Positions 20,219 through 39,248 of a stretch of DNA of 39,248 nucleotides are shown one piece after another (within the stretch, counting starts at the first letter, position 1; every line of letters starts with the position of its first letter). A program made the position numbers and the translations under genes. Below the pieces are notes generated by a model. The model did not search any database and was not told the DNA's origin. It saw nothing but the letters and a program-made list of their open reading frames with translations. Source of the stretch: Verrucomicrobiales bacterium (GTDB lineage: Bacteria; Verrucomicrobiota; Verrucomicrobiia; Limisphaerales; F1-80-MAGS106); NCBI GenBank assembly GCA_005805305.1, contig SYMW01000274.1:1-39248 (forward strand), read 5' to 3'.

Positions 20219-21162
20219 AGAACTTTTCACGGGATACGGCGAGAGGGCGACTGGAAGCTGGGGCTCGTGCCCTGGCGAAAAAAGCCGTCTCTGGGAGATG
20301 CAAGGCGGCGAGGCCATCCCCGGGGCGGGCGATGATGGCGGCGCTCTTTCTCGCGCTTGGTCAATCAGGTTGCGACACCAAAGCTCCCGGCCCCGGAAGC
20401 GGCTCGTCCGGCACTCCGCCACCTTCGGCGAAACAGGCGCTTGTTCCCGGAACCAACATGGTTTCCATCAAGGCCGGCACTTTCATGCGCCTCAAATATC
20501 CGGTGGCCATCACGCGCGATTTTTGGATTGGGAAGTATGAGGTGACACAGTCTGAATTCGGGGCCTTGGTGGGTCGAAACCCCAGCCATTTTACCGGGGA
20601 CTCGAACCGGCCAGTGGAAAAAATCACTTTTTTCGAAGCCACGGCCTATTGCTCGGCCATCACCCAGAGGGAGCGCGCCGCGGGGCGTTTGCCTCCGGAT
20701 TACGAATACCGGCTGCCTTCCGAAGCCGAATGGGAATATGCGTGCCGGGCGGGAACGACCAATTTGTTTAGCTTTGGTGACGACGTCAAAACCGCGGATC
20801 AATTCGCTTGGACAGCGGAGAACAGCGACGCCACGACGCATCCTGTGGGTCAAAAGCAACCGAATCCCTGGGGCCTTCACGACATGCATGGGAACGTTTG
20901 GGAATGGTGCCAGGATTGGTTTGAAGCTTATCCCGCCGCACCGCTCACGGATCCAACGGGGCCAGCGACCAGCAAGTTCAAACTATTTCGAGGCGGAGGC
21001 TGGAACCAAGATATCGAATACGCGCGGTCGGCCAACCGGTTCATGATGTCCCCCTCCAATGGCATTCATTTCGTGGGGTTCCGCATCGCCCTGGGCCATA
21101 AACGGCCCGAGCCGGCCCCCGTGTCTCAGATGAATCCCCTCAAACCTCCAACTAACCCATGA
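20215..21162 (+). CDS. SUMF1/FGE-fold lipoprotein lacking formylglycine-generating cysteines
   Basis: A 315-residue protein of the formylglycine-generating-enzyme fold (SUMF1, C-type-lectin-like). The N-terminal part is long and basic, then a hydrophobic stretch ends in the lipobox-like LGQSGC, suggesting an exported lipoprotein. The SUMF1 domain (about 80-295) has NMVSIKAGTFMRL, YEVTQSEFGALV, RLPSEAEWEYACRAGT, GLHDMHGNVWEWCQDW, FRGGGWNQDIEYARSANR and GFRIAL. In true FGE the segment after GGS carries two cysteines that bind copper and oxidise the sulfatase cysteine; here that segment has none, so formylglycine synthesis is unlikely. A binding or structural role is more likely. The gene overlaps both neighbours by ATGA, so it is made together with two FG-GAP proteins. 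Confidence 0.88.
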   Translation: MKNFSRDTARGRLEAGARALAKKAVSGRCKAARPSPGRAMMAALFLALGQSGCDTKAPGPGSGSSGTPPPSAKQALVPGTNMVSIKAGTFMRLKYPVAITRDFWIGKYEVTQSEFGALVGRNPSHFTGDSNRPVEKITFFEATAYCSAITQRERAAGRLPPDYEYRLPSEAEWEYACRAGTTNLFSFGDDVKTADQFAWTAENSDATTHPVGQKQPNPWGLHDMHGNVWEWCQDWFEAYPAAPLTDPTGPATSKFKLFRGGGWNQDIEYARSANRFMMSPSNGIHFVGFRIALGHKRPEPAPVSQMNPLKPPTNP

Positions 21163-23162
21163 ATCACTTTGCGATGGCGACTGGAAAAGCTCTTAGCCGA
21201 TGGTTGGTGGCCGGGCTGTTTCTGGCGCTTTTGTGGCACTTGCGATGGCTGCCACTGGTTCGAGGGGCGGACGGCACGGATGCCAAGGAAGTGATCGACC
21301 CTTCTGGCCAACAGGAGAATTCCATCCGCTGGTTGACGGCTAACAGGGAGAAACAGATTCAGTCCGCCAAAACTTGGGCCACGTTCCACGGCTTTCAGTT
21401 TACCGACCGGCAGGAAGAGAGTGGCATCAACTTCGTTTTGCGCCCTGTCGATGACGCTTCGAAGGACTACAAGGCGGTGCACTATGATCATGGCTCTGGT
21501 TTGGCGGCCGCCGATGTGGATGGCGACGGGCGTTTGGATTTATTTTTTGTGAATCAACTCGGGGGGAATCAACTTTGGCGGAACCTCGGCGGCGGCAAGT
21601 TCGAGGATGTGACGGCGGCTGCGGGGGTGGGAATGGCGGACAAGATCTGTGTCGGAGCCTCGTTCGCGGACATCGACAATGACGGTTTACCGGATCTGCT
21701 CGTCACCACGGTGAGAATGGGCAATTCTTTGTTCAAAAACATGGGCCGAGGCGTGTTTCGAGATGTCACCGCCGCATCAGGGATAAACGAAGGTCGTCCG
21801 GCGCATTCGTCAGGAGCGGTTTTTTTTGACTTCAACCGGGACGGGTTGCTGGATGTGTTCGTGTGTAATGTGGGGGTCTACACGAGAAACGAAAAGGGCC
21901 GGGGGGGCTTTTATTTGGGACGTTCGGACGCTTTTCAGGGATGGCAATTCACGGCGCGGAGCGAGCAAAGCAGCCTCTATCAAAACTTGGGAGGCGGAAA
22001 GTTTCAGAATGTGTCGAGCAAGCTGGGCCTGGAACATCGCGGTTGGTCAGGGGATGCGACCTTCTGCGATTTGAACGGGGACGGTTATCCGGATCTTTAC
22101 GTGCCCAGCATGTCTGGCAACGACCTGTTTTACGAGAATGAAGGAGGCGGAAAATTCAGGGAAAAGACCGCGGCTTACTTTCCCAAGACTCCTTGGGGCA
22201 CGATGGGTCTCAAGTTTTTCGACCACAATTTGGATGGGTTGATGGACCTTTATTTGACGGACATGCACTCCGACATGACGGTGGTCCAGATCAAGGCGGG
22301 CGACAAGGACTACAGCCCGCAGTTCGAGAAGCAGAAAAGCGATGCTTGGTGCTCGGCGGAGTGGTCGCCTGCCGCTCTCCAAAGCGCCTCCAATAATATC
22401 TTCGGCAATGCGTTTTACCAAAACCAAGGCGGGGGCAAATTTATCGAAATGTCATCGCGCATAGGCGCGGAAACCTACTGGCCGTGGGGCGTCAGCGTTG
22501 CCGATTTCAATGCCGACGGCTACGAGGACGTGTTCGTTGCCGCAGGCATGGGCTATCCTCTCCGTTATGCCATCAACTCGATGTTGTTGAACGAAGCGGG
22601 CGAGCGGTTCGTGGATAGCGAATACGTGCTCGGCCTGGAACCCCGCAAGAACAACCGCATTCAAATGGAATTCTTCACTTTGGATTGCTCTGGGGTGGAT
22701 CGGAAACACGCCCTGTGCAGAGGCAAGTCGGGAGTGTTGAGTGTGACGGGTTCGGCCAGTTCGCGGTCCTCGGTTGCTTTCGATCTCGACGACGACGGGG
22801 ACTTGGACTTGGTCACGAATGAATGGAATGGTCATCCCCAAGTGCTTATCAGCAACCTGGCCCAGAAGAAACCTGTTCGGTGGCTGATGCTGAAGCTCAT
22901 CGGAAGACCGAACGCCGCGGGAGGCTCAAATCGAGACGCTCTCGGCGCCCTCGTGCTGGTTCATGCCGGGAGCAAGATCCTCACGCGTTACAACGATGGA
23001 AAGAGCGGGCATCTGTCCCAAAGCTCATTACCGTTGTATTTCGGCTTGGACGGCTTCTCAAAAGTCGATCGAATTGAAGTCCTTTGGCCTTCGGGAAAAC
23101 GCCAAACCTTCACGGGGGAAACTCGTGTCAACTCGTTGCTGACGATCAAGGAAGAGGGGTGA
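21159..23162 (+). CDS. CRTAC1-family FG-GAP/ASPIC-UnbV secreted protein
   Basis: A 667-residue exported protein. The N-terminal membrane or signal segment is about residues 9-30 (ALSRWLVAGLFLALLWHL). Seven calcium-loop blades can be read: ADVDGDGRLDLFF, ADIDNDGLPDLLV, FDFNRDGLLDVFV, CDLNGDGYPDLYV, FDHNLDGLMDLYL, ADFNADGYEDVFV and FDLDDDGDLDLVT. The C-terminal ASPIC/UnbV domain (about 580-665) includes NRDALGALVLVHAG and DRIEVLWPSGKRQ. It is the last gene of the FG-GAP/SUMF1 operon; its ATG overlaps the preceding TGA. The stop TGA is followed after one base by the complete copy of the dispersed repeat element. Family function in bacteria is not established; animal CRTAC1 is an extracellular matrix protein. 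Confidence 0.92.
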   Translation: MNHFAMATGKALSRWLVAGLFLALLWHLRWLPLVRGADGTDAKEVIDPSGQQENSIRWLTANREKQIQSAKTWATFHGFQFTDRQEESGINFVLRPVDDASKDYKAVHYDHGSGLAAADVDGDGRLDLFFVNQLGGNQLWRNLGGGKFEDVTAAAGVGMADKICVGASFADIDNDGLPDLLVTTVRMGNSLFKNMGRGVFRDVTAASGINEGRPAHSSGAVFFDFNRDGLLDVFVCNVGVYTRNEKGRGGFYLGRSDAFQGWQFTARSEQSSLYQNLGGGKFQNVSSKLGLEHRGWSGDATFCDLNGDGYPDLYVPSMSGNDLFYENEGGGKFREKTAAYFPKTPWGTMGLKFFDHNLDGLMDLYLTDMHSDMTVVQIKAGDKDYSPQFEKQKSDAWCSAEWSPAALQSASNNIFGNAFYQNQGGGKFIEMSSRIGAETYWPWGVSVADFNADGYEDVFVAAGMGYPLRYAINSMLLNEAGERFVDSEYVLGLEPRKNNRIQMEFFTLDCSGVDRKHALCRGKSGVLSVTGSASSRSSVAFDLDDDGDLDLVTNEWNGHPQVLISNLAQKKPVRWLMLKLIGRPNAAGGSNRDALGALVLVHAGSKILTRYNDGKSGHLSQSSLPLYFGLDGFSKVDRIEVLWPSGKRQTFTGETRVNSLLTIKEEG

Positions 23163-24756: not shown

Positions 24757-27700
24757 ATGAATAGCACATCAATGAAGACGCTGCTTGCGCTCGGCGTCTG
24801 TCTGTTCGGTCTCAAAGCGTCAGCAAACGACATTGAGCCAGGAAAGGAATTCTACAAAGTAGTTTTCGCTCCAAACCCGATCGTTCTCGATGGAAACTTG
24901 GGCGAGTGGTCTGGAGTTCCCGTCCTTGCGGATCCGAAGTTTGCGGTTCCCAAGTACTCCGGGACGAACGCCGCCCCCAAGTATGTGCTCTTTGAGGAAT
25001 ATAACGGCGGGACATGGACCGGTCCGGACGATCACACGTCCGCGGTCCAAATTGTGTACGACGCGGACAACGTCTATTTCGGATTTGTGGTGACGGATGA
25101 TTACCACGAGAACGCCGCCAATAGCGCGTGGAACGGCGACTCTGTCCAACTGATGATCGCCAGCGCCGACCGCAAATCCCAGGTGGCTCTTTACAACTAC
25201 GCCCTGGGGGGCGTCGAGGCCGCGACCGGGGAAGTCATCGTGCAGCACGAGGCTGGTCCGGGGGGCACCGAAGCTGTGATCACCCGAAACGGGACGACAA
25301 AGCGCACCACCTACGAAATCAAGCTGCCCAAGGAAGCCTTGGGACTAGAGTCACTCAGGGGCGGACCTCAATTCGGTCTGGGGATGGCCATCAATGACGG
25401 TGATGAACTCACTCCTGGCCAAAAAGGCTGGGGTGGACTTGGGGCTCATTCGATTGTTTTTGGCAAGACTCCCGCGGAAACCGCGTTGATTACTCTAGCC
25501 AAGGGCAATGACATTGAACCGGGCAAAGAATTTTACACGGCACTCCGCACCACCGCGGCCATCACGTTGGATGGAAGCCTGAAGGAATGGACGGGGGCCC
25601 CTGTGCTTTCGGATCCTAAATTCGCCACCCCGAAATACTCGGGCACCAACGCCAACCCAAAATATGTTTTGTTTGAAGAATACAACGGGGGCACTTGGAC
25701 CGGCCCGAGCGATCAAACCTCAGCGGTCCAAATCGTTTATGATGCCGAAAACGTTTACTTCGGGTTCGTCGTGACGGATGACTTCCACGAGAATGCCGCG
25801 AACAGCGCCTGGAACGGCGATTCGGTCCAACTCATGATCGCGAGCGCCGACCGAACCGCGCAAGTGGCTCTCTACAATTATGCCTTGGGCGGCATCGAAA
25901 ACGGCATCGGAGACGTCATCGTGCAGCACGAGGCTGGTCCCGGCGGGACGGAAGCGGTGATCAGCCGCGACGGAGCCAACAAAAAGACCACATACGAAAT
26001 CAAACTGCCGGTCGAATCTCTCGGGTTGGCCGCGCCACTGACTATTGGAACTCAGTTTGGGCTGGGAATGGCGATCAATGATGGCGACGAATTGACCCCC
26101 GGCCAAAAAGGTTGGGGCGGTTTGGGCGCTCACTCCATCGTGTTTGGCAAGACTCCCTCCCAGACCGCGCTCGTCACCTTGGGTTCAACCGTGTCCGGTT
26201 CGGATCGCTTGTTCTTGTCATCGATCAATCCGTCCATTTTGACGTTCACATTTCGTGTTAACGACAAAGGAACATCGATTCTTAACCCCGCCAGCGCCAA
26301 GCTGACCATTGATGGCCAGGCCGTCACCTTGACCGCTGGCGCGAAAGTGGTGGATGCCACCGACTTTACCTATTCTCGAACGACTCAATTCGCGGCGGGT
26401 AATCATACGTATGCGATCGAGGTTCGAGATGCTCAGGGCAACGTGGTCACCGATTCTGGAACTTTCCGGGCCGCTAATGTCCCAGTGTTTGCGAAAGCCC
26501 AGCAGGCGGCGACGGTCGACAAGACCAAGCCAGGTTTCATCTGGCGCATGTTCCAAAACGAGATCACTCCCACGACAACCCTCGCTGAAGCGGAACTGGC
26601 GCTCACTGGAAAACTGCTGGATGGCAGCGGAGCGGTCGTTCCCAATAATGCCGACCCGGCCGCAGCGGGCATCGCTATAGCCGCTGGCACTAAAGACGGT
26701 GCGGTGATCAAATATGAGATCCCGACGGTCATCAACGTCAGCCTCTTTGCCGGGGATGCGAACGGGAATTTCCAACCGGACGATCAAATCCCGGGGATCC
26801 CCGGAGTTACCGCCGGGGACTTTGGAATCGTCGCCGAGGTCACTACCTACGTCGATCTCCCAGCCGGTCTAATCACTATGGGTGTGAACAGCCGGGATGG
26901 TTTCAGATCTCAAGGCGGCAACATTGGCAAACCCACGGACGGCACATTGCTGGGTGAATTCGAGGGCGACCGCGGTGCGACTGACTCGCTTTTTCGATTC
27001 GTCGTCCAAGACGCGGGTGTCTACGGATTGCGCACCGTTTGGCGGCAAGCCTCTGGATTGACTGTGTTGGAGTGGTTCACGGTAAAGGCGGATGGCACCA
27101 AGGTGCTGCTGAATGACACGGCTAACGGGGGGCTGAGCGCCTACCGCGTTGGAACCGGTCCCAGCCCCATTCCTCCCGGCATTCCGGTGGCGCCCAATCT
27201 CTCGGTTGCGGCGGCGCGAACGACTCCTGGGGACGGACTTTTTGGGGAGTATTGGAAGCGCGGTGTAAACACCATCAAGACTGATGGCAACACAGTCCCA
27301 GCGAACCGCATCGATGCTCAGATCGCCACCTTCGGCGCTCCTCGCGGTACGTTTCTGGCCAAGATTCTCAGTTACACTGGAAACGATTTGACCGCCGTTC
27401 CTGGCTGGCTGGGAGGTGACAGTGCTTCCTACTCGGGCATTCCTGGCAACTTGGACGACGGAGCTTTCCGATTCACTGGTTTCATCAATATCACCGCACC
27501 TGGAACGTTGAACATCGGCACCACATCCGATGACGGATCCCGCATCAAAATCGCGGGAATTGACATCATTGATAACGACGGCGGCCATGGGGACGCGACT
27601 GTCGACAAAGACGTCAGCTTCACTGCCGCGGGGATTTATCCCATCGAAATCACGTTCTTCAATGGAGATTGGACCAGCGACGGGGACAATCACTCCGGCA

Positions 27701-30015
27701 GCACGGATCCAGCCCTCCATGGCGGGGCGAATTTCCACCTTCGAATCAAAGGGGCAAACGTTACTCCAGCGCAGGTTGCGACTTACTTCTACACCGCTCC
27801 TTTGCCCAATTACGTGAGTGCCCGGATGTCCGTGGCTGCCCCGAGAACCGCCGTTGGCGATGGGCTTTACGGCGAATATTGGCAGCGGGGTGTGAATACG
27901 ATCAAAACTGATGGAAACACCGTTCCGGCCAACCGTATCGACACTCAAATCGCGAGTTTTGGCGCTCCCAGCGGCACGTTCGCCGCCAAAGCGCTCAGCT
28001 ACACCGGCAACGACCTCAGCCCGGTGCCCGCTTGGCTCGCAGGAGACACGGCGTCGTTCTCAGGGAAACCGGGCAACCTCGATGATGGTGCTTTCCGCTT
28101 CAGTGGGTTCATCAGCATCAAGGCGGCTGGCAAACTCAATATTGGCACGACTTCCGATGATGGGTCACGGGTCAAGATCGCTGGCATGGACATCATCGCC
28201 AACGATGGTGGGCACGGCGATGCCACCGTGGATGCCGATGTCAACTTCGCTGCGGCCGGGGTTTACCCGATCGAGATCACTTACTTCAATGGAGATTGGA
28301 CCAGCGACGGAGACAATCACTCGGGAAGCACGGATCCAGCCATTCATGGAGGAGCGAACTTCCACTTCCGCGTAAACGGATCCAACATTACTCCCGCGCA
28401 GGTTGGGACTTATCTCCACACCGCGCCGGCTCCGAATTATGTGCATGCCAGAAACGCGGCGGGCACCGCCCTGACCGGCGACGGCGACGGATTAAACGGC
28501 GAATATTGGCAGCGCGGAGTGAACACGATCAAGACTGATGGCAACACCGTCGCCGCTAATCGCATCGATGCCCAGATAGCCAGCTTTGGGGCTCCGAGTG
28601 GCAAGTTTGCCGCGAAGCTCCTGACTTACACCGGCAACGATCTGAGCCTCGTTCCAGCTTGGCTGGCCGGGGATAGCGCCTCATTCTCAGGTACGCCAGG
28701 CAACCTGGACGACGGCGCATTTCGCTTCACGGGGTTTATCAATGTCGCGGCGCCGGGCAAGCTCAACATCGGCACCACTTCGGACGACGGATCGCGCGTC
28801 AAAGTGGCCGGGATGGATATTATCGCGAATGACGGCGGCCATGGTGATGCGACTGTGGACGCCGATGTGAATTTCGGCGCCGCTGGCGTGTATCCCATCG
28901 AGATCACGTTTTTCAACGGCGACTGGACAAGTGACGGCAACAATCACTCCGGCAGCCCTGATCCAGCCCTCCATGGCGGGGCTAATTTCCACTTCCGCGT
29001 CAACGGAGCCAACATCACGGCCGAAGGCGCGAAAATGTTGTTCCGCACGGTCGACGGCAAGCCGGTGGTCGCTCCCAAAAAAGTTGCTTGGGTCAGCTTC
29101 CATGAGGACGATAATAAACCCACCACGGCAGCCGCTGCCGCGGGCTTCACTAAAGCTCCCGACGTGGGCTACACGGACCTGCTCAAAGCCAATGGTTACC
29201 AGGTGACGCGGTTCAAGAGCGTCGACAGCGCAAACGTGAGTTCACTCAGTTCCGCCGATCTGGTTATCATCAGCCGGTCTGTCGCCAGCGGTCACTACCA
29301 GCAAGCCGACGAAACGGCGACGTGGAACGGCCTTGGCAAACCTCTCATTGTCATGGGCGGTTATATCATGAGAAACAGCCGCTTGGGTTTCACGACCGGC
29401 GCGACGATTCCTGACACTTCTGGAACGATCAGTTTGAAGATCAACGACCCTGCTCATCCGATCTTCGCGGGAGTCGCCCTCGGAGCTGATAACGTCATGG
29501 CCAACCCGTACGCGAAGCTGGTCACTTACGCCGGCGGCGTTCAGCGCGGCATTTCAGTGAACACCGATCCGGTGGCGGGTAGTGGTAAGATTTTGGCCAC
29601 CGTGGGAACCGCGGGTGACGCGGCCAACGGCGGTTTGGTGATCGGCGAGTGGACGGCAGGGGCCGTCATGGGCGATGCCGCGAAGGACGTGTTGGGCGGT
29701 CCTCGCCTGGTCTTCCTCAGCGGCAGCCGGGAACAAGTCATCACCTCGGAAGGCGCGGGCATCTTTGATCTCGATCCGGACGGGGCGAAGCTGTTCTTGA
29801 ATGCTGTGGCCTACATGGCCAATAAAGTCGTGGCTGAACCGCTGGTGTTCTCGTCAATCGTCCTGAGCGGCAACAACCTCACCTTGACGTGGAAAGGCGG
29901 CGGCACTTTGGAGCAGGCGGTCAGCGTCACGGGTCCGTGGACCCAGGTTTCGGGAGCGTCTCCTCACACAGTTCCCTCAAGCGGCGCGGGCGCGTTTTTC
30001 AGGCTGCGCCGGTGA
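24757..30015 (+). CDS. 1752-residue secreted mosaic: 2x CBM9-like, 3x PA14-like, ThuA-like
   Basis: A giant exported protein with signal peptide (about 1-23, ending LKASA). Two tandem CBM9/DOMON-like sugar-binding units of 227 residues (about 24-250 and 251-478) both start NDIEPGKEFY and share LDG-L-EW, YVLFEEYNGGTWTGP, WNGDSVQLMIASADR and NDGDELTPGQKGWGG. A linking region (about 480-820) follows. Then three PA14-like units of 209 residues start near 825, 1034 and 1243 (GEYW-RGVNTIKTDGNTV, GNLDDGAFRF, NIGTTSDDGSR, YPIEIT-FNGDWTSDG). From about 1440 to 1690 lies an alpha/beta domain resembling ThuA/class I amidotransferase folds (VAWVSFHEDD, ADLVIISRSVASGHY, LIVMGGY). The short C-terminal tail ends GAGAFFRLRR and may be an export or sorting tail. 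Glycan binding at the surface is inferred; no catalytic centre is evident. Confidence 0.85.
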   Translation: MNSTSMKTLLALGVCLFGLKASANDIEPGKEFYKVVFAPNPIVLDGNLGEWSGVPVLADPKFAVPKYSGTNAAPKYVLFEEYNGGTWTGPDDHTSAVQIVYDADNVYFGFVVTDDYHENAANSAWNGDSVQLMIASADRKSQVALYNYALGGVEAATGEVIVQHEAGPGGTEAVITRNGTTKRTTYEIKLPKEALGLESLRGGPQFGLGMAINDGDELTPGQKGWGGLGAHSIVFGKTPAETALITLAKGNDIEPGKEFYTALRTTAAITLDGSLKEWTGAPVLSDPKFATPKYSGTNANPKYVLFEEYNGGTWTGPSDQTSAVQIVYDAENVYFGFVVTDDFHENAANSAWNGDSVQLMIASADRTAQVALYNYALGGIENGIGDVIVQHEAGPGGTEAVISRDGANKKTTYEIKLPVESLGLAAPLTIGTQFGLGMAINDGDELTPGQKGWGGLGAHSIVFGKTPSQTALVTLGSTVSGSDRLFLSSINPSILTFTFRVNDKGTSILNPASAKLTIDGQAVTLTAGAKVVDATDFTYSRTTQFAAGNHTYAIEVRDAQGNVVTDSGTFRAANVPVFAKAQQAATVDKTKPGFIWRMFQNEITPTTTLAEAELALTGKLLDGSGAVVPNNADPAAAGIAIAAGTKDGAVIKYEIPTVINVSLFAGDANGNFQPDDQIPGIPGVTAGDFGIVAEVTTYVDLPAGLITMGVNSRDGFRSQGGNIGKPTDGTLLGEFEGDRGATDSLFRFVVQDAGVYGLRTVWRQASGLTVLEWFTVKADGTKVLLNDTANGGLSAYRVGTGPSPIPPGIPVAPNLSVAAARTTPGDGLFGEYWKRGVNTIKTDGNTVPANRIDAQIATFGAPRGTFLAKILSYTGNDLTAVPGWLGGDSASYSGIPGNLDDGAFRFTGFINITAPGTLNIGTTSDDGSRIKIAGIDIIDNDGGHGDATVDKDVSFTAAGIYPIEITFFNGDWTSDGDNHSGSTDPALHGGANFHLRIKGANVTPAQVATYFYTAPLPNYVSARMSVAAPRTAVGDGLYGEYWQRGVNTIKTDGNTVPANRIDTQIASFGAPSGTFAAKALSYTGNDLSPVPAWLAGDTASFSGKPGNLDDGAFRFSGFISIKAAGKLNIGTTSDDGSRVKIAGMDIIANDGGHGDATVDADVNFAAAGVYPIEITYFNGDWTSDGDNHSGSTDPAIHGGANFHFRVNGSNITPAQVGTYLHTAPAPNYVHARNAAGTALTGDGDGLNGEYWQRGVNTIKTDGNTVAANRIDAQIASFGAPSGKFAAKLLTYTGNDLSLVPAWLAGDSASFSGTPGNLDDGAFRFTGFINVAAPGKLNIGTTSDDGSRVKVAGMDIIANDGGHGDATVDADVNFGAAGVYPIEITFFNGDWTSDGNNHSGSPDPALHGGANFHFRVNGANITAEGAKMLFRTVDGKPVVAPKKVAWVSFHEDDNKPTTAAAAAGFTKAPDVGYTDLLKANGYQVTRFKSVDSANVSSLSSADLVIISRSVASGHYQQADETATWNGLGKPLIVMGGYIMRNSRLGFTTGATIPDTSGTISLKINDPAHPIFAGVALGADNVMANPYAKLVTYAGGVQRGISVNTDPVAGSGKILATVGTAGDAANGGLVIGEWTAGAVMGDAAKDVLGGPRLVFLSGSREQVITSEGAGIFDLDPDGAKLFLNAVAYMANKVVAEPLVFSSIVLSGNNLTLTWKGGGTLEQAVSVTGPWTQVSGASPHTVPSSGAGAFFRLRR

Positions 30016-30081: not shown

Positions 30082-30206
30082 GTCCCGCGATCATAGGAAT
30101 CTTTGTCCCTCGAGTGGATCAAACACCTGAGTTCGACGCGACGCGTCACTAATCCCTCATCGCCGACCCGCTCCAGTTTGACTTGGGCCCCTCCATCTGG
30201 CTCAGT

Positions 30207-30210
30207 AGGA
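30207..30210 (+). promoter_or_regulatory. Shine-Dalgarno deciding the start of the FG-GAP lipoprotein
   Basis: AGGA lies 5 nt before the ATG at 30216 and supports this start over a TTG at 30183 in the same frame. Confidence 0.5.
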
Positions 30211-30215
30211 CAAAT

Positions 30216-32009
30216 ATGATCGCGATCCCCCAGAACTCCCCGACAACCGCCCATGGATCGCCGTTTCAGTGGACCGGAGTCTTGCTTTTGTTTCTCCAGT
30301 TGGCCGGCGTCGGATGTCGCGAGCAACAACAAACTCCCGGGGCCCCATCGTCCACTCTCCACGATCAGAGTCAATCCTGGCTCGAAGACGCCACGGACAA
30401 GTTCGGTTTAAGCTTCAGCCACGACGTCGGCCAAGTTGGGCGTTACTTTATGCCAGAGTCGCTGGGATCTGGAGCTGCGATTTTCGATTTCGACAATGAC
30501 GGGCGCATGGACCTCTTGCTGTTGCAGAACGGAGGGCCGGAATCTCAATCGAAGCACCAGCTCTTTCATCAGGAGGTGGAGGGACAATTCCGCAACGTCA
30601 GCGCTGGAAGTGGGCTCGATGTGGCCGGCCATGGCATGGGTGTGGCGATCGGGGATGTCGATAATGACGGTCTTCCAGACGTCGCGATCACCGAGTATGA
30701 AAAAATTCGACTGTTCCATAATCGAGGCGGCGGACGATTCGCCGAGGCTGCGACACAGTCGGGCCTGGAGAATCCTCACTGGGGCATGTCGGCTTGCTTT
30801 TTCGACTATGACAGGGATGGTTGGCTGGACTTGGCGGTAGTAAATTACATCGATTATTCGCCCTCGATGAAGTGTCCGGAGGCGCAGGGCACGCCCGGCT
30901 ATTGCGGACCTTCTGGCTTCAAGGGAACTGTGCCCAGGCTCTTCCGAAATCTGGGTGCCGAAGGAAAAGGCATTCGATTCGCCGACGTCACAGTTGGGGC
31001 CGGTCTCGCCAATTTAGCCGGGCCTGGCTTGGGGATTGTGTGTGCCGATTTCGACGGCGACCGATGGCCCGACCTCTTAATTGCCAATGATGGCCATGTG
31101 AACTGGCTGCTTGTGAATCAGCGGGACGGAACGTTCACTGAGCAGGCAGCCGCCCGCGGCGTCGCCTACAATCGCATGGGCTCCGTTGAGGCCAACATGG
31201 GGGTCGCCATGGGAGACGTGGATGCCGATGGACTATTCGACATACTGATAACACATTTGAACACGGAAACCCACACCCTTTGGAGGCAAGAACCTCGCGG
31301 ACAATTCCGGGATCGGACGGCCCAGTCCCGCATCGCCTCATCAAATTGGCGGGGCACTGGCTTTGGCACCGTCTTGACGGATCTGAACAATGATGCCAGC
31401 CCGGATTTGGTGGTCGTGAATGGAGGCATTAAACGGCTCGGCATCGAACCAGCCCCAAACGGCAAGGCCAACCGTGATCCGTTTTGGAATGGGTTCGAAC
31501 AGCGCAATCAGGTTTTCGCAAACAACGGATCCGGAACGTTTGAGGACATCTCCGCCCGCAACTTGTCCTTCAGCGGGACGGCGGCCGTCTCTCGTGGCTT
31601 GGCGGCGGGAGATTTGGACAACGACGGTGCGACCGATTTGGTCGTCACACGAATCGCGGCGTCAGCGCGGATCTATCGCAATGTCGCACCCCGCGCGCAT
31701 TGGCTGACTCTCCGTTTAGTGGATCCAGCGTTGGGGGGACGTGATGCCTATGGTGCGGAAGTGCGCATTGTGTCGGGCGGGCGCCGACAAACCGCATGGC
31801 TGAATCCAGCGTATAGCTACCTCTGCAGCAATGACCCCCGGATACATTTCGGTTTAGGATCCTCTTCCCGAGCGGAATCTATACATATCGTTTGGCCAAA
31901 CGGATCGGAGGAGCAGTTCGATGGTGTGGCCGCCGCTCGCATCATCACTCTCCGCAAGGGAACCGGAAGATCATTGGTCGAACCAAGTGCCCAGCACAAA
32001 AGTCCATGA
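30216..32009 (+). CDS. CRTAC1-family FG-GAP/ASPIC-UnbV lipoprotein
   Basis: A 597-residue exported protein with lipobox LAGVGC after a hydrophobic segment (WTGVLLLFLQLAG), so probably lipid-anchored. Seven calcium-loop blades are readable: FDFDNDGRMDLLL, GDVDNDGLPDVAI, FDYDRDGWLDLAV, ADFDGDRWPDLLI, GDVDADGLFDILI, TDLNNDASPDLVV and GDLDNDGATDLVV. The C-terminal ASPIC/UnbV domain (about 500-585) contains RDAYGAEVRIVSGG and SIHIVWPNGSEEQ. Its stop overlaps the ATG of the TPR gene (ATGA), and CRTAC1/TPR pairs of this kind recur in Planctomycetota and Verrucomicrobiota. The start at 30216 is preferred for its Shine-Dalgarno. Role unknown; probably extracellular binding or scaffold. Confidence 0.92.
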   Translation: MIAIPQNSPTTAHGSPFQWTGVLLLFLQLAGVGCREQQQTPGAPSSTLHDQSQSWLEDATDKFGLSFSHDVGQVGRYFMPESLGSGAAIFDFDNDGRMDLLLLQNGGPESQSKHQLFHQEVEGQFRNVSAGSGLDVAGHGMGVAIGDVDNDGLPDVAITEYEKIRLFHNRGGGRFAEAATQSGLENPHWGMSACFFDYDRDGWLDLAVVNYIDYSPSMKCPEAQGTPGYCGPSGFKGTVPRLFRNLGAEGKGIRFADVTVGAGLANLAGPGLGIVCADFDGDRWPDLLIANDGHVNWLLVNQRDGTFTEQAAARGVAYNRMGSVEANMGVAMGDVDADGLFDILITHLNTETHTLWRQEPRGQFRDRTAQSRIASSNWRGTGFGTVLTDLNNDASPDLVVVNGGIKRLGIEPAPNGKANRDPFWNGFEQRNQVFANNGSGTFEDISARNLSFSGTAAVSRGLAAGDLDNDGATDLVVTRIAASARIYRNVAPRAHWLTLRLVDPALGGRDAYGAEVRIVSGGRRQTAWLNPAYSYLCSNDPRIHFGLGSSSRAESIHIVWPNGSEEQFDGVAAARIITLRKGTGRSLVEPSAQHKSP

Positions 32010-33400
32010 GTGGAAGTTCGCGACCAAAACGTAAGCATGGGAAACCGCAGAGGATCGAAACACCAGCGCCGCCGAGTTTTCGTCCGCGCAATCGGCTTTA
32101 TTGGATAGCCGCGATGTTCCTGGGCGCTATCGCCTTTCTTGTGTTTTTGGTCTGGCGGCCTCCGCCTCCACCGGTGGTTGAAGTGAATGCGGGTGGATTC
32201 GATCCCGCCATCGCTTCAGCGATTCTGGAAACTCGCGACGCCGCGCGCGGGGCTCCTCGTTCGGCCGAAAAACGAGGTCGTATGGGACAGGTGCTTCTCG
32301 CGCACGAGGTTTGGGCGGAATCGCGGCGGTGCTTCGAGCAAGCCATGGCCCTCGATCCGAGGGAACTTCGATGGCCGTACCTTTTGGGAGTGTCGAGGCT
32401 TGCGGATAGCCCCTCGGACGCCGCTTTGGCATTCGAGCGGGCGGTGCGGTTGTCTCCGGAACGCGAGTCCGCTCCGCGGCTCAAGCTGGCTCAGGTTTTG
32501 CTCGGTTTGGGCCGGCTTGATGAAGCGGAGAGCCTGTATCGCCATGTTTACGCGCGGGAGCCTAATTCCGCCGTTGCCTTGCTTGGCTTGGGCAGGGTCG
32601 CCGCGGCGAGGGATCATTGGTCGGTGGCGGTCGATTTTCTCAACGCCGCGGCGGCAGATGCCTCGACGAGGAAAGCGGCGCACAGGCTGCTTTTGAACGT
32701 TAACCAACAATTGGGCCGAACCAACGAAGCAGGCCGGAACGCGAAAGCACTCGCTGATTTACCCAACGACGAGCCACCCCTGGATCCATACCTCTCGGAA
32801 GTCGAGCGGTTGAAGACGGGCGAAGAAGCATGGATCAACACGGCCGACGAATGGATCAAGAAAGGACAGGTGAGCGAAGCGGCTGAATTGCTCGAGAAGA
32901 CCCTCAAGTCGTATCCGCGGTCGGATCGTGCCCTGTTCTTTCTCGGCCGAGCGCGGCTCCGTCTCGGCGATGCCAGGGGAGCCGAATCAATCCTGACGCA
33001 GGCGGTGGAATTGGCGCCAGACTCAATTGAGGCCCAGCTCCAATTAGGCGCGACTCGGCTGTATCGCGGCCGACCAAAGGAAGCTCAAGCGTGTTTTCGC
33101 GCCGCGATCAAGGCCAAGCCAAACCTGGGCGAGGCGTGGTTCAATTTGGGCCTGAGCCTTGGTGCGAAGTCGGAACGTCCAGAATGTATCCGCGCATTTC
33201 GAGAAGCCATTCGACTCAGACCAAATCTATTCGAAGCTTACCTCGGGCTTGCCGTGATTCTTCGAGCCGAAGGCGAGCTTCAAGCTGCGGCCTTGGAATT
33301 ACGCCGCGCTTTGGCACTTGGCCCTCCGGACGCCTTGCGGGAAAAACTGTTCGCCCATCTGGCGCTCGTGGAGCCCGGCAGCCGTGGCGCTGGCAAATGA
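32006..33400 (+). CDS. Membrane-anchored tetratricopeptide-repeat protein
   Basis: A 464-residue protein. A basic cytoplasmic tail (SSRPKRKHGKPQ) precedes one membrane helix (about 31-50, LYWIAAMFLGAIAFLVFLVW) and a proline-rich spacer (RPPPPPVVEV). The remainder is a TPR solenoid, probably in the periplasm: repeats include ESRRCFEQAMALDPRELRW, DAALAFERAVRLSPE, LDEAESLYRHVYAREPNSA, AAELLEKTLKSYPRSDRA, GAESILTQAVELAPDSIEA, EAQACFRAAIKAKPNLGEA and CIRAFREAIRLRPNLFEA. TPRs bind partner proteins, here perhaps the FG-GAP lipoprotein encoded immediately upstream with a 4-nt overlap. The frame is open further upstream inside that gene, but the overlap ATG at 32006 fits a coupled operon. The next gene starts 25 nt downstream. 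Confidence 0.92.
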   Translation: MSGSSRPKRKHGKPQRIETPAPPSFRPRNRLYWIAAMFLGAIAFLVFLVWRPPPPPVVEVNAGGFDPAIASAILETRDAARGAPRSAEKRGRMGQVLLAHEVWAESRRCFEQAMALDPRELRWPYLLGVSRLADSPSDAALAFERAVRLSPERESAPRLKLAQVLLGLGRLDEAESLYRHVYAREPNSAVALLGLGRVAAARDHWSVAVDFLNAAAADASTRKAAHRLLLNVNQQLGRTNEAGRNAKALADLPNDEPPLDPYLSEVERLKTGEEAWINTADEWIKKGQVSEAAELLEKTLKSYPRSDRALFFLGRARLRLGDARGAESILTQAVELAPDSIEAQLQLGATRLYRGRPKEAQACFRAAIKAKPNLGEAWFNLGLSLGAKSERPECIRAFREAIRLRPNLFEAYLGLAVILRAEGELQAAALELRRALALGPPDALREKLFAHLALVEPGSRGAGK

Positions 33401-33425: not shown

Positions 33426-36400
33426 ATGAAGCTATTCCTGATCCAGATCAGTTCCATCAGATGGCTGGCGGCAATGATCGTCCACTTCGTTTGGCTGCAC
33501 CCACTCAGCGCTCAGGGCAATCCCAAAGCCCCCGTGGTTGACGACTATCACGGGACGAAGGTGTCGGACCCTTACCGCTGGCTTGAGAATTGGTTTGACC
33601 CCGCCGTTCGGCGCTGGAGCGGCGGTCAAACGAAGTTCGCTCGAGCCGCGTTGGATGCGCTTCCCGCCAGAGCTCCGACCGAAGACCGGTTCACGCGGCA
33701 TCTCCTCGCTCCCTCCTCCCGCTATTCCTCGTTGGAATGGCGTCGCGGGCAGTTGTTTCTCCTGCGATCAAGCATGCCGGACATGCACCCGGCGCTCGTG
33801 TCGATCGGTTCTCCCACGGATTTAAGCTGGGTGAAGGTCATTCTCGATCCGAACCAATGGAGTACCGTTGGCGCCGTGGGGATCGACTGGTACGTCCCTT
33901 CTTTGGACGGACGCAAGGTGGCCATTGCCCTTTCCGAGGATGGATCTGAGTTCAGCAAGCTCCATTTGTGCGAGACGATGACCGGCCAGCGCCTGCAAGA
34001 CGAGGTGCCTCATGCGCAAGGCTCCAAGAAAGGGCGCGGAGTCGCTTGGAATCGCGACGCCTCCGGGTTCTTCTACGCCCGATCTTCGGCTTCCAGCGAA
34101 CGCTCCGATTCGGGGGCGGCGCTCCCTTTGCGGATCTATTTTCACAAGCTTGGCTCTCCCGCCGAGCGAGACTCCTTTGAGCTCGGGATCGATTCTCCTC
34201 GAAACGCCACCGCGCAATTCCAATCGAGCCCGGACGGACGCCAGGTATTGGTGACGGTCATCAATGGCCTCAACGGGGAGCGCGCTCATTATTTTCGAGA
34301 TGCCCAAGGGGCTTGGAAGCAGGTCGCCAAGTTTGAGGATCGCGTCACGCAGGCGGCCTTTGGGCGCGATCCGCTTGGGAGTGAGTTCAACGATGACCAC
34401 GTGCTTTTATTTCTGGCACGTGGTGAATCCGCCAATGGGAGAATCCTCCGAGTCCCGCTGGATGCCACAAGCTTGTCCGACGCTCAAATCATCGTTTCGG
34501 AAAAATCCAAAAAAATCCGAGATTTTGTTCCTGCGGCGACCGGAATTTTCCTTGCCTTGGAGCAGCCGGGAACAGCAGAGATCGCGTTTTTTGATTATTC
34601 GAAAAAGGACCTCACTCACCCGAAAAATGGAGCCGACACGGACACGGGGCCGGGGGTGGGGGACATGGTGGCCACCAGAGGAGACGAGGTGCTTTATCAA
34701 TCGTTGTCCTACACTCGTCCTCCCATGTGGATGCGATTTGATCCGGGGAATGGCAAATCAACCAGTCAGGCAACGGCTCTTGCAGCAACTTCACCGGTTT
34801 CATTTAACGACGTCGAAGTGGTTCGCGAGTCGGCGCCATCCAATGGCGGCGGCAAGATTCTTCTGACCATGATTCACAGAAAGGGAACGCGGCTCGACGG
34901 CCAGGCCCCCGCGCTTCTCGCGACGTGCGATTCTTTGGTCAGCGGATCGAGTCCTGAATCCGAAGTGGCGCGACGAGTTTGGCTCGACCAAGGCGGCGTG
35001 ATCGCGATCGCCAACTTGCGCGACAGCCCCCGCCTCGGCCCGGACTCACAACGGCCAGGGGAGGGGATTCGATCACTCGCTGCCGACGCCGACAATTTGG
35101 CTAACTGCGCGCGGCGCCTGGTGGAACTTGGCTACAGCGCTCCTGCGAAGCTCGCGCTCGAAGGAGCCCTAGAAAGCGGAGTTCTCGTGGGCGCCTTGCT
35201 CGCCCGAAATCCTGGGACGGTGAGGGCAGTTGTTTCGCGATCGGGCTTGCACGACTTGCTTCGCGCGGAGCTGATTCCGAACAACTTCATCGGCAAGACG
35301 CAATTTGACGCCGGCGCGAGCCTCGAGCAATTTCAGGGACTTCTTGGCGTTTCTCCCTATCACGGAATCCTTCACAAACTGAATTATCCCGCCGTGCTCC
35401 TGCTTTGCGGCGCGGAGGACGGCGAGGTGGATCCGGCCCATTCTAGAAAGATGGCGGCGAGGCTCCAAGCGGCCACCACCCCCTTCCGCCCGGTTCTTGT
35501 TCACGCGTCCGCGACTGCGCGGCGGGGAATCGGGTCCCAGTTGATGGGGCGGATTGGGGATCTGGCTGATGTCTACGCTTTCTTATTGGATCAACTGGGA
35601 ATCGAGTATTCCCAAATTGACCGTGGTCCCTGGTCGGGCGCCGTGACCCACTCTTCGGCCATCGTGAAGGCAAGACTCGTTCGTGAAGGATTATCCGCCC
35701 GCTTGGCAGTCAGCGTCAGCCCCTCCTTGTCACGGCCGATGTATTTCGGATACAGCCGATCGGACACAAACCGGCACAGCATTGTGGAGTTCGCGGCGGA
35801 GAAACTCCGAGCCGACACGCAATACTATTACGGAATGGAAATTGAAGGTCGTTTGGACCGGAGAAACACGGGCCTGTTCAGGACATTTCCCGCCCCGGGT
35901 CCCGCGTCTTTCACGATCGCCTTTGCCTCTTGCGCCAAAACGGGATCGATCCTGGATACGTTCGATCGCATTCGCGAGAACCGCCCCCTCTTCTTCATGC
36001 ATTTGGGGGATATGCACTATGAGGATATCCGAACGGACAGCCTGGCGCTGTTTCGAGACGCCTATGATAGAGTGCTCGCCTCTCCACAACAAGGGGATCT
36101 CTACCGGAGCGCGCCGCTGGTTTACGTGTGGGATGATCACGATTTCGGTGGGAACAACAGCGACAGCCGGGCGGTGTCGCACGAAGCTGCCCTTCGTGCT
36201 TTCGAGGAATATGTGCCCCATTACCCGCTGGTCCTCGCTGAAAAGCAGGGAGCGGTCTCCCAATCATTTTCGGTCGGCCGGGTGAAATTCATCGTCACGG
36301 ACCTCCGATCACAACGAAATGATCCAAGGAGAAGGGACACTTCCCGGAAAAGCATGATGGGTTCGAAACAAAAGGAGTGGTTCAAGCAGGAGTTGCTGTC

Positions 36401-36968
36401 CGCCAATGGCCAGTACCCCCTGATCTGCTGGGTGTCTTCCGATCCGTGGCTTGGGCAGCCGAGGACGAATTATTACCATTGGATACGCGCCGACCAATAT
36501 GGCTACATCCACCATACGAATCACCTCGCCGAATCAATCGCGCGGACCAATCGGACCACCGCGGCGGACGATCATTGGAGCGTGTTCGCCAGCGAGAGGC
36601 GGGAGATTGCCGAGTTCGTGAAGGCCAACCGCATTCGAGGACTGTGCATTCTCCATGGCGATTCCCACATGCTTGCCGCTGATGACGGCAGCAACGGGGA
36701 TTTCGCGGTTGGCGGAGGCGCTCCCATTCCCGTCATGTGCGCCGGCCCACTGGATCAAACAGCGTCGATCAAAGGCGGCTATTACAGCGAAGGCGTCTAC
36801 CGTGTGCGCCCGGGCGAAGGCGGCTTTGGGCTCTTAACCGTGACGGATCGATTCGATCGCATCGATGTTTCTTTCAGCGGGCGGAACAATCTCAATGAAG
36901 AGAAGATCTCGCTGCGGTTCTCGGTGCCCGCCTCGAAGCGGTTCATGGACTTTTTCAAGCGGCCGTGA
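33426..36968 (+). CDS. Fusion of a degenerate prolyl-oligopeptidase module and a PhoD-type phosphatase
   Basis: A 1180-residue exported protein with an N-terminal signal peptide (WLAAMIVHFVWLHPLSAQG). Residues about 30-725 follow prolyl oligopeptidase (S9A): VVDDYHGTKVSDPYRWLEN opening, a propeller, then the alpha/beta-hydrolase part. The nucleophile motif GGSNGG is replaced by GALESG (Leu582 where Ser is expected), the catalytic His by Arg700 (ARRGIG for AGHGAG), and only the Asp (Asp665, EDGEV) remains, so peptidase activity is unlikely. Residues about 735-1180 are a PhoD-type metallophosphatase: the N-terminal GPWSGAVTHSSAIVKARL strand domain, FASC, HLGDMHYED (Asp862), WDDHDF (903-907) and HGDSHM (1077-1082), all apparently intact. 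There is no frameshift or stop at the join. It is the third gene of an operon with the FG-GAP lipoprotein and TPR genes. Phosphodiester or phosphomonoester hydrolysis is inferred. Confidence 0.85.
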   Translation: MKLFLIQISSIRWLAAMIVHFVWLHPLSAQGNPKAPVVDDYHGTKVSDPYRWLENWFDPAVRRWSGGQTKFARAALDALPARAPTEDRFTRHLLAPSSRYSSLEWRRGQLFLLRSSMPDMHPALVSIGSPTDLSWVKVILDPNQWSTVGAVGIDWYVPSLDGRKVAIALSEDGSEFSKLHLCETMTGQRLQDEVPHAQGSKKGRGVAWNRDASGFFYARSSASSERSDSGAALPLRIYFHKLGSPAERDSFELGIDSPRNATAQFQSSPDGRQVLVTVINGLNGERAHYFRDAQGAWKQVAKFEDRVTQAAFGRDPLGSEFNDDHVLLFLARGESANGRILRVPLDATSLSDAQIIVSEKSKKIRDFVPAATGIFLALEQPGTAEIAFFDYSKKDLTHPKNGADTDTGPGVGDMVATRGDEVLYQSLSYTRPPMWMRFDPGNGKSTSQATALAATSPVSFNDVEVVRESAPSNGGGKILLTMIHRKGTRLDGQAPALLATCDSLVSGSSPESEVARRVWLDQGGVIAIANLRDSPRLGPDSQRPGEGIRSLAADADNLANCARRLVELGYSAPAKLALEGALESGVLVGALLARNPGTVRAVVSRSGLHDLLRAELIPNNFIGKTQFDAGASLEQFQGLLGVSPYHGILHKLNYPAVLLLCGAEDGEVDPAHSRKMAARLQAATTPFRPVLVHASATARRGIGSQLMGRIGDLADVYAFLLDQLGIEYSQIDRGPWSGAVTHSSAIVKARLVREGLSARLAVSVSPSLSRPMYFGYSRSDTNRHSIVEFAAEKLRADTQYYYGMEIEGRLDRRNTGLFRTFPAPGPASFTIAFASCAKTGSILDTFDRIRENRPLFFMHLGDMHYEDIRTDSLALFRDAYDRVLASPQQGDLYRSAPLVYVWDDHDFGGNNSDSRAVSHEAALRAFEEYVPHYPLVLAEKQGAVSQSFSVGRVKFIVTDLRSQRNDPRRRDTSRKSMMGSKQKEWFKQELLSANGQYPLICWVSSDPWLGQPRTNYYHWIRADQYGYIHHTNHLAESIARTNRTTAADDHWSVFASERREIAEFVKANRIRGLCILHGDSHMLAADDGSNGDFAVGGGAPIPVMCAGPLDQTASIKGGYYSEGVYRVRPGEGGFGLLTVTDRFDRIDVSFSGRNNLNEEKISLRFSVPASKRFMDFFKRP

Positions 36969-36999: not shown

Positions 37000-38370
37000 T
37001 CAGCCTCCCAAGTTTTTTGGATCACTCACGTCGCCTTTGTTAAAATCCACATAGGCTTCAGTAAGATCCGCCGCATACATGAGGGCGCTCCCGGCACCCA
37101 AATTGAGTCGGATATGCAAATCGAACTCGCCGGGAGCGGCTGCCTCGCACAACACGGGGTATGACACTTTCGTAGGCTGCCCATTTCTTAAGGACCACAC
37201 GACCCGCCGTCCTCCGGGAGCGCTGTAACCAATATCCACTTTCTGCTCGACCACGGTCGCAGGACTGTAGCCGAGCGCGTCGATTATCCGGCCCCAGTTG
37301 GGATCGCCTCCGTGCCAGCTCGTTTTGACTAGAGCGCTGTTGGCGACGGCCCGGGCAGCCGCGTCGGCCTCACGGTTGTTCTTGGCTCCCTCAACTCGAA
37401 CCGTGACGACTCGATGAACGCCTTCGCCGTCGCGAACGATTTTTTTGGCGAGATCCAGGCACACGTGCTCCAAGGCTCGTGAAAATTCGGTGAAACCCGC
37501 GGATCCTTCGGGGTTCTTCCCCGCCTTCACCGCCCTGGCGATCTTCTCGGTGATCGGCGGGTTCTCCGCGAGGCCATTGGCCAGCACCAAGACAGTGTCA
37601 TTGGTGCTCATGTCGCCGTCCACGGTGATCCGGTTGAAACTCTTCGTGACCGCTTCCTGTAGAGCCAGACGCAAGGCGGCTGGGTGGATCGCGGCGTCCG
37701 TGGTTATGAAACAAAGCATGGTGGCGTGGAGCCCTGATGGCGTTGCGGCGGGACGCCTCCCAGACAGGCTCATGCCCGGTTGGATCATGCCCGCGCCTTT
37801 GCACATCCCTCCGATGCACACCGGCTTTCCCGCAACACGCAATTCCACCGCGGCCGTTTTGAGGCGCGTGTCGCTCGTCATGATGGCTTCGGCGGCATGC
37901 TGCGCATGCTCCGCCGAGCCGCCGAGTTCGGCGCAGGCCGCCAAAATCCCCTCCCGCACTCTCTCCATGGGCAGCTCGACGCCGATGCGCCCCGTTGAAG
38001 CCACGAGCACTTGCTCCTCGGGAAGGCGCAATTCCTGGGCGGCCAGGAGCGCCATGGCGCGGGCGTCCTTGATCCCTTGATCGCCAGTGCACGCATTGGC
38101 ATTGCCGGAATTGATGACGATGGCTTGAGCCACTCCACTTTTCACGCGATCGATGCAGAGTTTGACTGGGGCCGCGCAGATCTGATTCGTCGTGAACAGC
38201 CCGGCCACGGCCGCGGGCACCTCGGAGACAATCAAGGCCACGTCCCGCTTGCGCCCTTTGCTGGAGCCCTTGCCTGTTCCTAGTCGTTTGATGTCGCAGA
38301 AGACGCCGGCGCTCAAAAAACCGCGAGGCGCGACTACTGAGCCGGGGATCGTTGTGAATTTCAATTTCAT
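37000..38370 (-). CDS. argJ: Arginine biosynthesis bifunctional protein ArgJ
   Basis: A 456-residue ornithine acetyltransferase/N-acetylglutamate synthase that recycles the acetyl group from N-acetylornithine to glutamate in the cyclic arginine pathway; cytoplasmic. Conserved stretches include GLFTTNQICAAPV, VINSGNANACTGDQG, ASTGRIGVELP, IMTSDT, GGMCKGAGMIQP, ATML (Thr217, autocatalytic nucleophile), VDGDMSTNDT, GDPNWGRI and the C-terminal DLTEAYVDFNKGD. Family length is normally about 400-410; part of the excess is 15 extra residues directly before the ATML self-cleavage site (201-215). It lies 12 nt behind hemL on the same strand, so probably one transcript. No other arginine genes are in the window. 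Confidence 0.96.
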   Translation of the reverse strand: MKLKFTTIPGSVVAPRGFLSAGVFCDIKRLGTGKGSSKGRKRDVALIVSEVPAAVAGLFTTNQICAAPVKLCIDRVKSGVAQAIVINSGNANACTGDQGIKDARAMALLAAQELRLPEEQVLVASTGRIGVELPMERVREGILAACAELGGSAEHAQHAAEAIMTSDTRLKTAAVELRVAGKPVCIGGMCKGAGMIQPGMSLSGRRPAATPSGLHATMLCFITTDAAIHPAALRLALQEAVTKSFNRITVDGDMSTNDTVLVLANGLAENPPITEKIARAVKAGKNPEGSAGFTEFSRALEHVCLDLAKKIVRDGEGVHRVVTVRVEGAKNNREADAAARAVANSALVKTSWHGGDPNWGRIIDALGYSPATVVEQKVDIGYSAPGGRRVVWSLRNGQPTKVSYPVLCEAAAPGEFDLHIRLNLGAGSALMYAADLTEAYVDFNKGDVSDPKNLGG

Positions 38371-38382
38371 GAGTCTAGAGGC

Positions 38383-39248
38383 CTAGCACGCCTTCATGCT
38401 GTCGCTGGCGGCGGAAACTGTTTTTGCAATGTCGTCCATTGAGTGCGCGGAGGAGATGAATCCGGCCTCGAATTGGGAGGGCGCGAGATAGACTCCGCGG
38501 TTTAGCATCCCGTGGAAGAAACGGGCAAAGCGAGCTCGGTCACAGCGCATGGCGTCGTTCACGTTCCAGACCGGAGTTTCCGTGAAGTAACCGCAGAACA
38601 TCGAGCCCGCGCGTTGAAACTGAACGGGCACGCCCGCCGACTTGGCGGCGTCGCGCATGCCGGACTCCAGCGCCTCTCCGAGCTGCTCCAGGTGCGCATA
38701 AACGTCCGCGGATGCCAGCTCCTCCAAGGCGGCAATGCCGGCGCCCATCGCCAACGGGTTGCCGCTCAAAGTGCCTGCCTGATACACCGGTCCGAGCGGC
38801 GCGAGCAAGTCCATGATCTCAGCTCGTCCTCCAAACGCGCCTACCGGCAGCCCGCCTCCAATGATCTTGCCGAAGCAGCTCAAATCAGGGCGGATGCCAT
38901 ACACTTGCTGCGCCCCCCCGGGCGCCAGCCTGAACCCCGTCATCACTTCGTCGAATATCAATAGCGCCCCTTGCTCGCTCGTGATTCGCCTCAGGCACTC
39001 CAGAAAGCCGGGCTTGGGGAGGTAGAGGCCGGCGTTGCCCGGAACGGGCTCGAGGATGATCCCCGCGATCTGGCCGGCGTTCGCCTGAAACGCGGCCGCC
39101 ACGGCTGCCTCGTCGTTGAAGGGGAGCACGATCGTGTGCTCCGTGAACGAAGCAGGAACGCCCGCACTGTCAGGATATCCAAACGTCAAGGCGCCGGACC
39201 CTGCCTTCACCAGCAGCGAATCCGAATGCCCGTGGTAACAGCCTTCGA
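38383..39248 (-). CDS. hemL: Glutamate-1-semialdehyde 2,1-aminomutase, partial
   Basis: The last 287 residues of a PLP enzyme that converts glutamate-1-semialdehyde to 5-aminolevulinate in tetrapyrrole synthesis; the N-terminus lies beyond the right edge. The first residues visible, EGCYHGHSDSLLVKAGSG, are highly characteristic. Further motifs are IILEPVPGNAG, LLIFDEVMTGFR (PLP-contacting Asp) and the Schiff-base lysine in SCFGKIIGGGLPVGAFGG, then GTLSGNPLAM and, near the C-terminus, GVYLAPSQFEAGFISSAH. All match HemL and not acetylornithine or GABA aminotransferases. The gene is cotranscribed with argJ judging from the 12-nt spacing. Confidence 0.96.
   Translation of the reverse strand, partial: EGCYHGHSDSLLVKAGSGALTFGYPDSAGVPASFTEHTIVLPFNDEAAVAAAFQANAGQIAGIILEPVPGNAGLYLPKPGFLECLRRITSEQGALLIFDEVMTGFRLAPGGAQQVYGIRPDLSCFGKIIGGGLPVGAFGGRAEIMDLLAPLGPVYQAGTLSGNPLAMGAGIAALEELASADVYAHLEQLGEALESGMRDAAKSAGVPVQFQRAGSMFCGYFTETPVWNVNDAMRCDRARFARFFHGMLNRGVYLAPSQFEAGFISSAHSMDDIAKTVSAASDSMKAC

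Follow-up and report, generated by a model that had tools for sequence, protein, structure and literature searches.

The window analyzed here is a 39,248-nucleotide stretch of DNA from a Verrucomicrobiales bacterium (assembly GCA_005805305.1, contig SYMW01000274.1), and it contains a gene in which a prolyl oligopeptidase (POP) of subfamily S9A is joined to a PhoD-type phosphatase within a single open frame from ATG to stop. The product is probably an exported PhoD-type metallophosphatase or phosphodiesterase, carried behind a complete, dead S9A POP module that would now act as a non-catalytic scaffold. The evidence comprises the unbroken frame, the loss of the nucleophilic Ser, the catalytic His and the oxyanion Tyr, the POP-like fold in a predicted model, the presence of the PhoD motifs, the recurrence of the fusion in live and dead forms, and a PhoD half that is constrained next to a POP half that has diverged; from it we infer that the protein is exported and active as a phosphatase, what its substrate is like, and that the POP half acts as a scaffold.

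Domain organization of the fusion

The encoded protein consists, in order, of a signal peptide, a complete S9A POP module, PhoD_N and PhoD, located as follows.

33426..36968, + strand: S9A-PhoD fusion gene, 1,180 aa
33426..33512, + strand: Sec-type signal peptide, residues 1–29, MKLFLIQISSIRWLAAMIVHFVWLHPLSA, judged by eye from the sequence
33528..34763, + strand: POP beta-propeller (Peptidase_S9_N), residues 35–446, from Pfam and the predicted fold
34803..35609, + strand: alpha/beta-hydrolase domain (Peptidase_S9), residues 460–728, catalytically dead, from Pfam and alignment
35634..35885, + strand: PhoD_N domain, residues 737–820, a weak Pfam match kept in all relatives
35919..36689, + strand: PhoD metallophosphatase domain, residues 832–1088, from Pfam, the match to 2yeq and the model

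Pfam analysis of the protein identified Peptidase_S9_N at residues 35–446 (5e-46), Peptidase_S9 at 518–725 (3e-17) and PhoD at 832–1088 (2.5e-24; 86.5 bits, above the curated cut-off of 27), with PhoD_N at 737–820 scoring 0.0012, under the family cut-off. The nearest solved structures by sequence were POPs across residues 30–737 (best 7e-60) and Bacillus subtilis PhoD (2yeq) across the last ~450 residues. No twin-arginine signal was seen by eye in the window fusion. Hydrophobic N-termini precede the POP module in most of the other fused proteins described below as well, and we would expect the window protein to be exported.

Structure prediction, proposed as a check in the first-pass annotation of this DNA, gave a POP-like fold for residues 29–735 and a PhoD-like fold for the C-terminal part. 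In the AlphaFold2 (AF2) model of the whole chain, built from 26 alignment rows, the PhoD part had a predicted local distance difference test score (pLDDT) near 93 and matched 2yeq at E 4e-24, and the POP half was unusable because just three rows covered it. Modeling of residues 29–735 alone from five rows yielded a moderate model (mean pLDDT 72; predicted template modeling score 0.71) that matched the open-state POP 3iuj with template modeling (TM) scores of 0.77/0.81, suggesting that the dead half would still look like a complete POP.

Loss of the peptidase active site

The window protein is an S9A POP by fold, with both the propeller and the C-terminal Peptidase_S9 hydrolase present, and it lacks the Ser-Asp-His triad of an active peptidase in its GGSNGG / D / HG context. 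Alignment placed Leu582, Asp665 and Arg700 at the triad positions, so that Ser and His are lost and Asp is kept, with GALESG (residues 580–585) occupying the place of GGSNGG in relatives. Both substitutions had been read correctly from the letters alone in the first-pass annotation. The oxyanion Tyr is also gone, the substrate Arg (POP Arg643) is Glu667, and no Trp is found at the position of the S1 Trp (POP Trp595). An ordinary POP with an intact triad (L002) is encoded elsewhere in the same genome. The key positions, all assigned by alignment, are listed below.

34926..34928, + strand: Cys501 at the oxyanion Tyr position (POP Tyr473)
35169..35171, + strand: Leu582 at the nucleophile Ser position (POP Ser554)
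35418..35420, + strand: Asp665, the triad Asp (POP Asp641), retained
35523..35525, + strand: Arg700 at the catalytic His position (POP His680)

Metal-ligand residues of the phosphatase half

The motifs HLGDMHYED, WDDHDF and HGDSHM, which the earlier reading had picked out, are all present in the window PhoD domain, and most PhoD metal-ligand motifs are intact by alignment. The metal-binding residues of B. subtilis PhoD include Cys180, Asp207, Asp265, Asp266, Asn271, Asn272, Asp436 and a Tyr (PMC4223295), and the following residues of the window protein align with them.

35931..35933, + strand: Cys836, aligned with the Fe3+ ligand Cys180 of B. subtilis PhoD
36009..36020, + strand: D-M-H-Y, with Asp862 and Tyr865 (PhoD Asp207 and the tyrosinate position)
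36132..36137, + strand: Asp903 and Asp904 (PhoD Asp265 and Asp266), in WDDHDF
36660..36668, + strand: Asp1079-Ser-His1081 (PhoD Asp436 and the following His), in HGDSHM

The Fe3+ site is thus represented in the alignment by Cys836, Asp862, Tyr865 and the C-terminal GDxH motif Asp1079-x-His1081. At the Ca2+ sites, Asp903, Asp904 and Asp1079 align, and Asn910/Asn911 lie near the expected Asn pair in an ambiguous register. The NCBIfam PhoD equivalog model scored 32.7 bits against a cut-off of 1000, and as judged from sequence the protein is PhoD-like and not a B. subtilis-type equivalog. Phosphatase activity is likely; of the dead peptidase and intact phosphatase originally proposed to share one chain, the former stands as described and the latter is probably intact.

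Occurrence of live and dead fusions

Searches for the fusion covered the genome to which the window belongs and 97 relatives, together with sets of 384, 320 and 388 genomes from the class, order and phylum, respectively. The same domain order, a search for which had also been suggested, was found only within the window's order: 14 further fused genes occur in 11 genomes (G013, G314, G021, G040, G041, G043 (two), G084 (two), G529 (two), G530, G531 and G599), making 15 with the window. All share the short junction RGPWSG and an identical domain order; the genes of G041 and G531 are cut by contig ends, and the assembly of G314 is a single contig that carries the fusion. No fusion was found outside the order among the 388 phylum genomes at E <= 1e-90, and among 74 contig loci the halves are fused only in L033 and L034, both from the window's order. 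Outside the fused genes, the POP and PhoD halves are separate genes, and the order commonly encodes secreted stand-alone PhoDs that have a signal peptide of their own.

At the peptidase, eight of the 15 fusions look live and seven, including the window, are dead. GGSNGG, Asp and HG are kept in seven (G040, G021, G043a, G013, G084a, G314 and G529a), and the G041 fusion keeps Asp and HG in its surviving part. Ser and His are both lost in the window, G043b, G084b, G529b, G599, G530 and G531 through differing substitutions, position 582 being L, G, R, G, H, D and G across the seven. One live and one dead copy coexist in each of G043, G084 and G529, all of one genus, and the dead type is present in 5/5 genomes of their family. 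Six of the dead copies, among them the window, are not truncated at a contig end, and all six retain the whole ~700-aa POP module. The triad was intact in the stand-alone sister POPs inspected, except for one short fragment with a local gap at Ser.

The stand-alone sister POPs and the live fusions lack the S1-pocket Trp595, having PNGAFNVTEFG instead of TIGWAWTSDYG, which suggests that the cleavage specificity of this S9A subclade is probably not prolyl. Scans of viral contigs for POP relatives returned only two distant active-type POPs, and one further scan returned none; full-length prolyl oligopeptidases whose triads are intact are encoded on L212 and L214, IMG/VR contigs classified as viral.

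Divergence of the two halves and history of the fusion

Mean identity to the live set was similar for dead and live copies in the PhoD half (0.54–0.62 vs 0.56–0.62), and lower for dead than for live copies in the hydrolase domain (0.30–0.44 vs 0.66–0.71) and the propeller (0.30–0.41 vs 0.47–0.55). Identity at fourfold-degenerate sites was about that expected by chance, indicating that synonymous change is saturated, and the hydrolase identity of 0.21–0.55 that remains among the dead copies therefore reflects constraint. Among 133 hydrolase positions invariant in live copies, the 10 pocket positions, which were taken from established POP numbering and picked after the alignment was seen, were kept at a rate of 0.16 in dead copies, compared with 0.50 for the other 123 (permutation p 0.0007). 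In dead copies, both the nucleophile elbow and the His loop have been broken down, and scaffold positions stay (for example Pro495, Trp519, Gly524, Pro596, Pro644, Pro655 and Asp715). In these alignments, it is mainly the active site that has suffered the losses.

In trees of the POP half, the fused genes group as a single clade nested within the stand-alone sister family (support 100), and the grouping of their PhoD halves as one clade against stand-alone PhoDs was borderline (approximately unbiased (AU) test, p 0.063). A quick POP tree united all seven dead copies (99), with a long-branch warning; a careful PhoD tree gave the dead grouping a support of 50/66, with an AU p of 0.15 for the alternative placing the window with live copies, and a careful POP tree gave AU p of 0.10–0.15 for the question of a single dead origin. 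The careful trees are compatible with one inactivation and with several. The fusion would have arisen within this Verrucomicrobiota order with an active peptidase half, and in the lineage of the window the peptidase active site would have been dismantled with the fold retained.

A downstream partner gene

Directly downstream of 14/14 other fusions, live or dead, and on the same strand lies a gene for a secreted protein of ~230 aa composed of two repeats, whose end mostly overlaps or nearly touches that of the fusion gene.

L196:8179–8880, + strand: two-repeat partner, likewise directly downstream in L187–L195, L197, L198, L200 and L201

The repeat consensus, in two tandem copies, is GxWxWxFTMPDG...IESxWxGExxxYPWEAxR. 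The partner protein had no Pfam, NCBIfam or PDB match of note, and the gene was absent beside the stand-alone POPs and PhoDs examined. The window is the sole fused locus without it; the best relative in the genome is distant and on another contig. Many genomes of the order carry this repeat, arrayed in tandem in two to several copies (for example G027:C42, G018:C206, G077:C366 and G054:C127), and it apparently constitutes a widespread unnamed repeat family there.

Possible roles of the dead module

We propose that the propeller-hydrolase half most likely serves the adjoining phosphatase as a non-catalytic scaffold, in substrate docking, gating or oligomerization. In this model, live fusions would be exported and would combine peptidase and phosphatase, acting with the partner on phosphorylated peptide-like or glycopeptide-like matter, and in the dead line the phosphatase would remain under unchanged constraint next to a folded POP module able to bind, gate or oligomerize. 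That the dead module binds substrate and presents it to the phosphatase, as suggested in the first-pass annotation, is possible. Several points weigh against the scaffold proposal. The window copy, unlike every other copy, has no partner and may behave differently from the rest, and same-genus genomes G001 and G002 show no copy of the fusion. The register at the second Ca2+ site is ambiguous (PhoD Asn271/Asn272 against window G909/N910/N911). The dead POP halves diverge fast, with propeller identity of 0.27–0.40 among dead copies, which also fits a slowly decaying relic, and the intact frame of the POP half is in part a consequence of translation having to continue into PhoD.

A possible extension that overlaps with the scaffold proposal, and that we put forward tentatively, is a division of labor following duplication, with live copies as bifunctional peptidase-phosphatases and dead copies as phosphatase-only paralogs, each with a downstream partner. 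The live and dead copies found together in G043, G084 and G529, every one beside a partner gene, are consistent with it; by contrast, only a dead copy was seen in the window's genome, G530 and G599, and the window copy lacks the partner. With a completeness of only ~82%, the assemblies of the window's genome (G000) and of G530 might still conceal a live one. With similar reserve, the fusion and its dedicated two-repeat partner could be viewed as an exported two-gene module new to this order, in which the pseudo-peptidase of one paralog gates or feeds the phosphatase and live/dead pairs occur within genomes.

The main competing explanation, which we consider unlikely, is that the POP half is a passive relic without a role, persisting because it sits in frame, with a required signal peptide before it and PhoD after it, and slowly decaying. 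Such decay would account for hydrolase and propeller identities well under that of the PhoD half in every dead copy, for the very long POP branches in G599 and G530, and for active-site positions being lost first. It accounts less well for the hydrolase identity of 0.21–0.55 that remains among dead copies although synonymous sites are saturated, and for the half of the non-pocket live-invariant positions that are kept. In addition, the six uncut dead copies all keep the ~700-aa module though the stand-alone secreted PhoDs common in the order indicate that a shorter form is viable, and the window half still folds as a POP in the AF2 model.

It is highly improbable that the hydrolase half is alive through another chemistry or a displaced triad. 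Asp665 is kept, and Ser584 and His693 are at hand; Ser584, named earlier as a possible working nucleophile, is ruled out, however, by its place two residues past the nucleophile position and by the absence of His at 700, and every other dead copy has Gly or Asn there in place of this Ser. A rescued triad via Ser584 or His693 was rejected on alignment: no candidate nucleophile is common to the dead copies, none has His at 700, His693 is not conserved, and the window has in addition lost the oxyanion Tyr and the substrate Arg. Although the window's genome is fragmented (319 contigs, 82% complete), the idea that two genes were joined in assembly, a concern raised at the outset should orthologs always be two separate genes, or that the gene is a pseudogene with a frameshift, is refuted by the recurrence of the domain order and junction in 14 other genes of 11 other assemblies, one of them single-contig.

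Genomic neighborhood

The genes flanking the fusion are as follows.

31892..33400, + strand: TPR protein, upstream neighbor, 25 bp before the fusion gene; not conserved at other fused loci
37000..38370, − strand: argJ, convergent, directly after the fusion, where all other loci have the partner gene
38383..39246, − strand: hemL-like aminotransferase, cut by the window end

A hemL gene lies near the fusion only in the window and in G021, where it is ~3 kb downstream of the live fusion; this common neighbor is suggestive, not proof, of positional orthology between the live G021 fusion and the dead window copy. The same-genus G001 shares the neighbors PA14, FGE and argJ, yet has no fusion beside argJ. 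Three FG-GAP/UnbV_ASPIC proteins are encoded in the window within a 16-kb span (16517–20218, 21159–23162 and 30183–32009), with an FGE-sulfatase-type gene (20215–21162) and a TPR gene between or beside them. Positions 24757–30015 of the window encode a protein of 1,752 aa whose near-identical internal repeats contain two CBM9-like and three PA14 domains; a 75% relative of this protein is found near argJ in G001 (L235).

Relation to known families and significance

The window protein shares with S9A POPs (MEROPS; porcine 1qfm, Myxococcus 2bkl, apPEP 3iuj) the complete propeller and hydrolase, the topology and the triad Asp; it differs in the absence of the Ser, His, oxyanion Tyr and substrate Arg, in the PhoD fused at its C-terminus, and in belonging with a sister clade that as a whole lacks the S1 Trp. 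With B. subtilis PhoD (2yeq; PMC4223295) it shares the PhoD_N and PhoD order, the fold, and the Cys, Asp, Tyr, Asp-Asp and Asp-x-His ligand motifs, but it is only 17% identical in the fold alignment, lies behind a POP module and carries no visible twin-arginine signal. The stand-alone POPs and secreted PhoDs of the same order or class are ~36–43% and 49–54% identical to the respective halves; unlike the window fusion they are separate genes, with no partner beside those examined and intact triads in the POPs inspected. A precedent is provided by DPP6 and DPP10, inactive S9B peptidases that are animal membrane proteins with non-catalytic binding roles (PMC4350108). The window POP half is likewise a dead S9 propeller-hydrolase, and by analogy may have a non-catalytic role; DPP6/DPP10 belong to a different subfamily and have no second enzyme fused, and DPP10 has lost only Ser, with His and Asp remaining (PMC4350108).

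Both halves belong to known families, and their combination in one chain, in live and in dead form, and the partner are new as far as the literature searched, which excluded most subscription journals and contained no description of them; the earlier statement that no characterized protein of this architecture is known agrees with this. Pseudo-enzymes are hard to study, and their active ancestor is usually distant. Here, related genomes carry one fused protein in live and in dead versions, some of these side by side in the same genome and with the same partner beside them, so that the purpose of the dead half can be asked directly, with the phosphatase as the read-out of its role. PhoD is one of the major phosphatase families of soil phosphorus cycling. 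Should the live copies work as their sequences suggest, a PhoD phosphatase can be coupled to a peptidase in one chain, and this coupling, if true, would point to a joint attack on phosphorylated material resembling peptides or glycopeptides.

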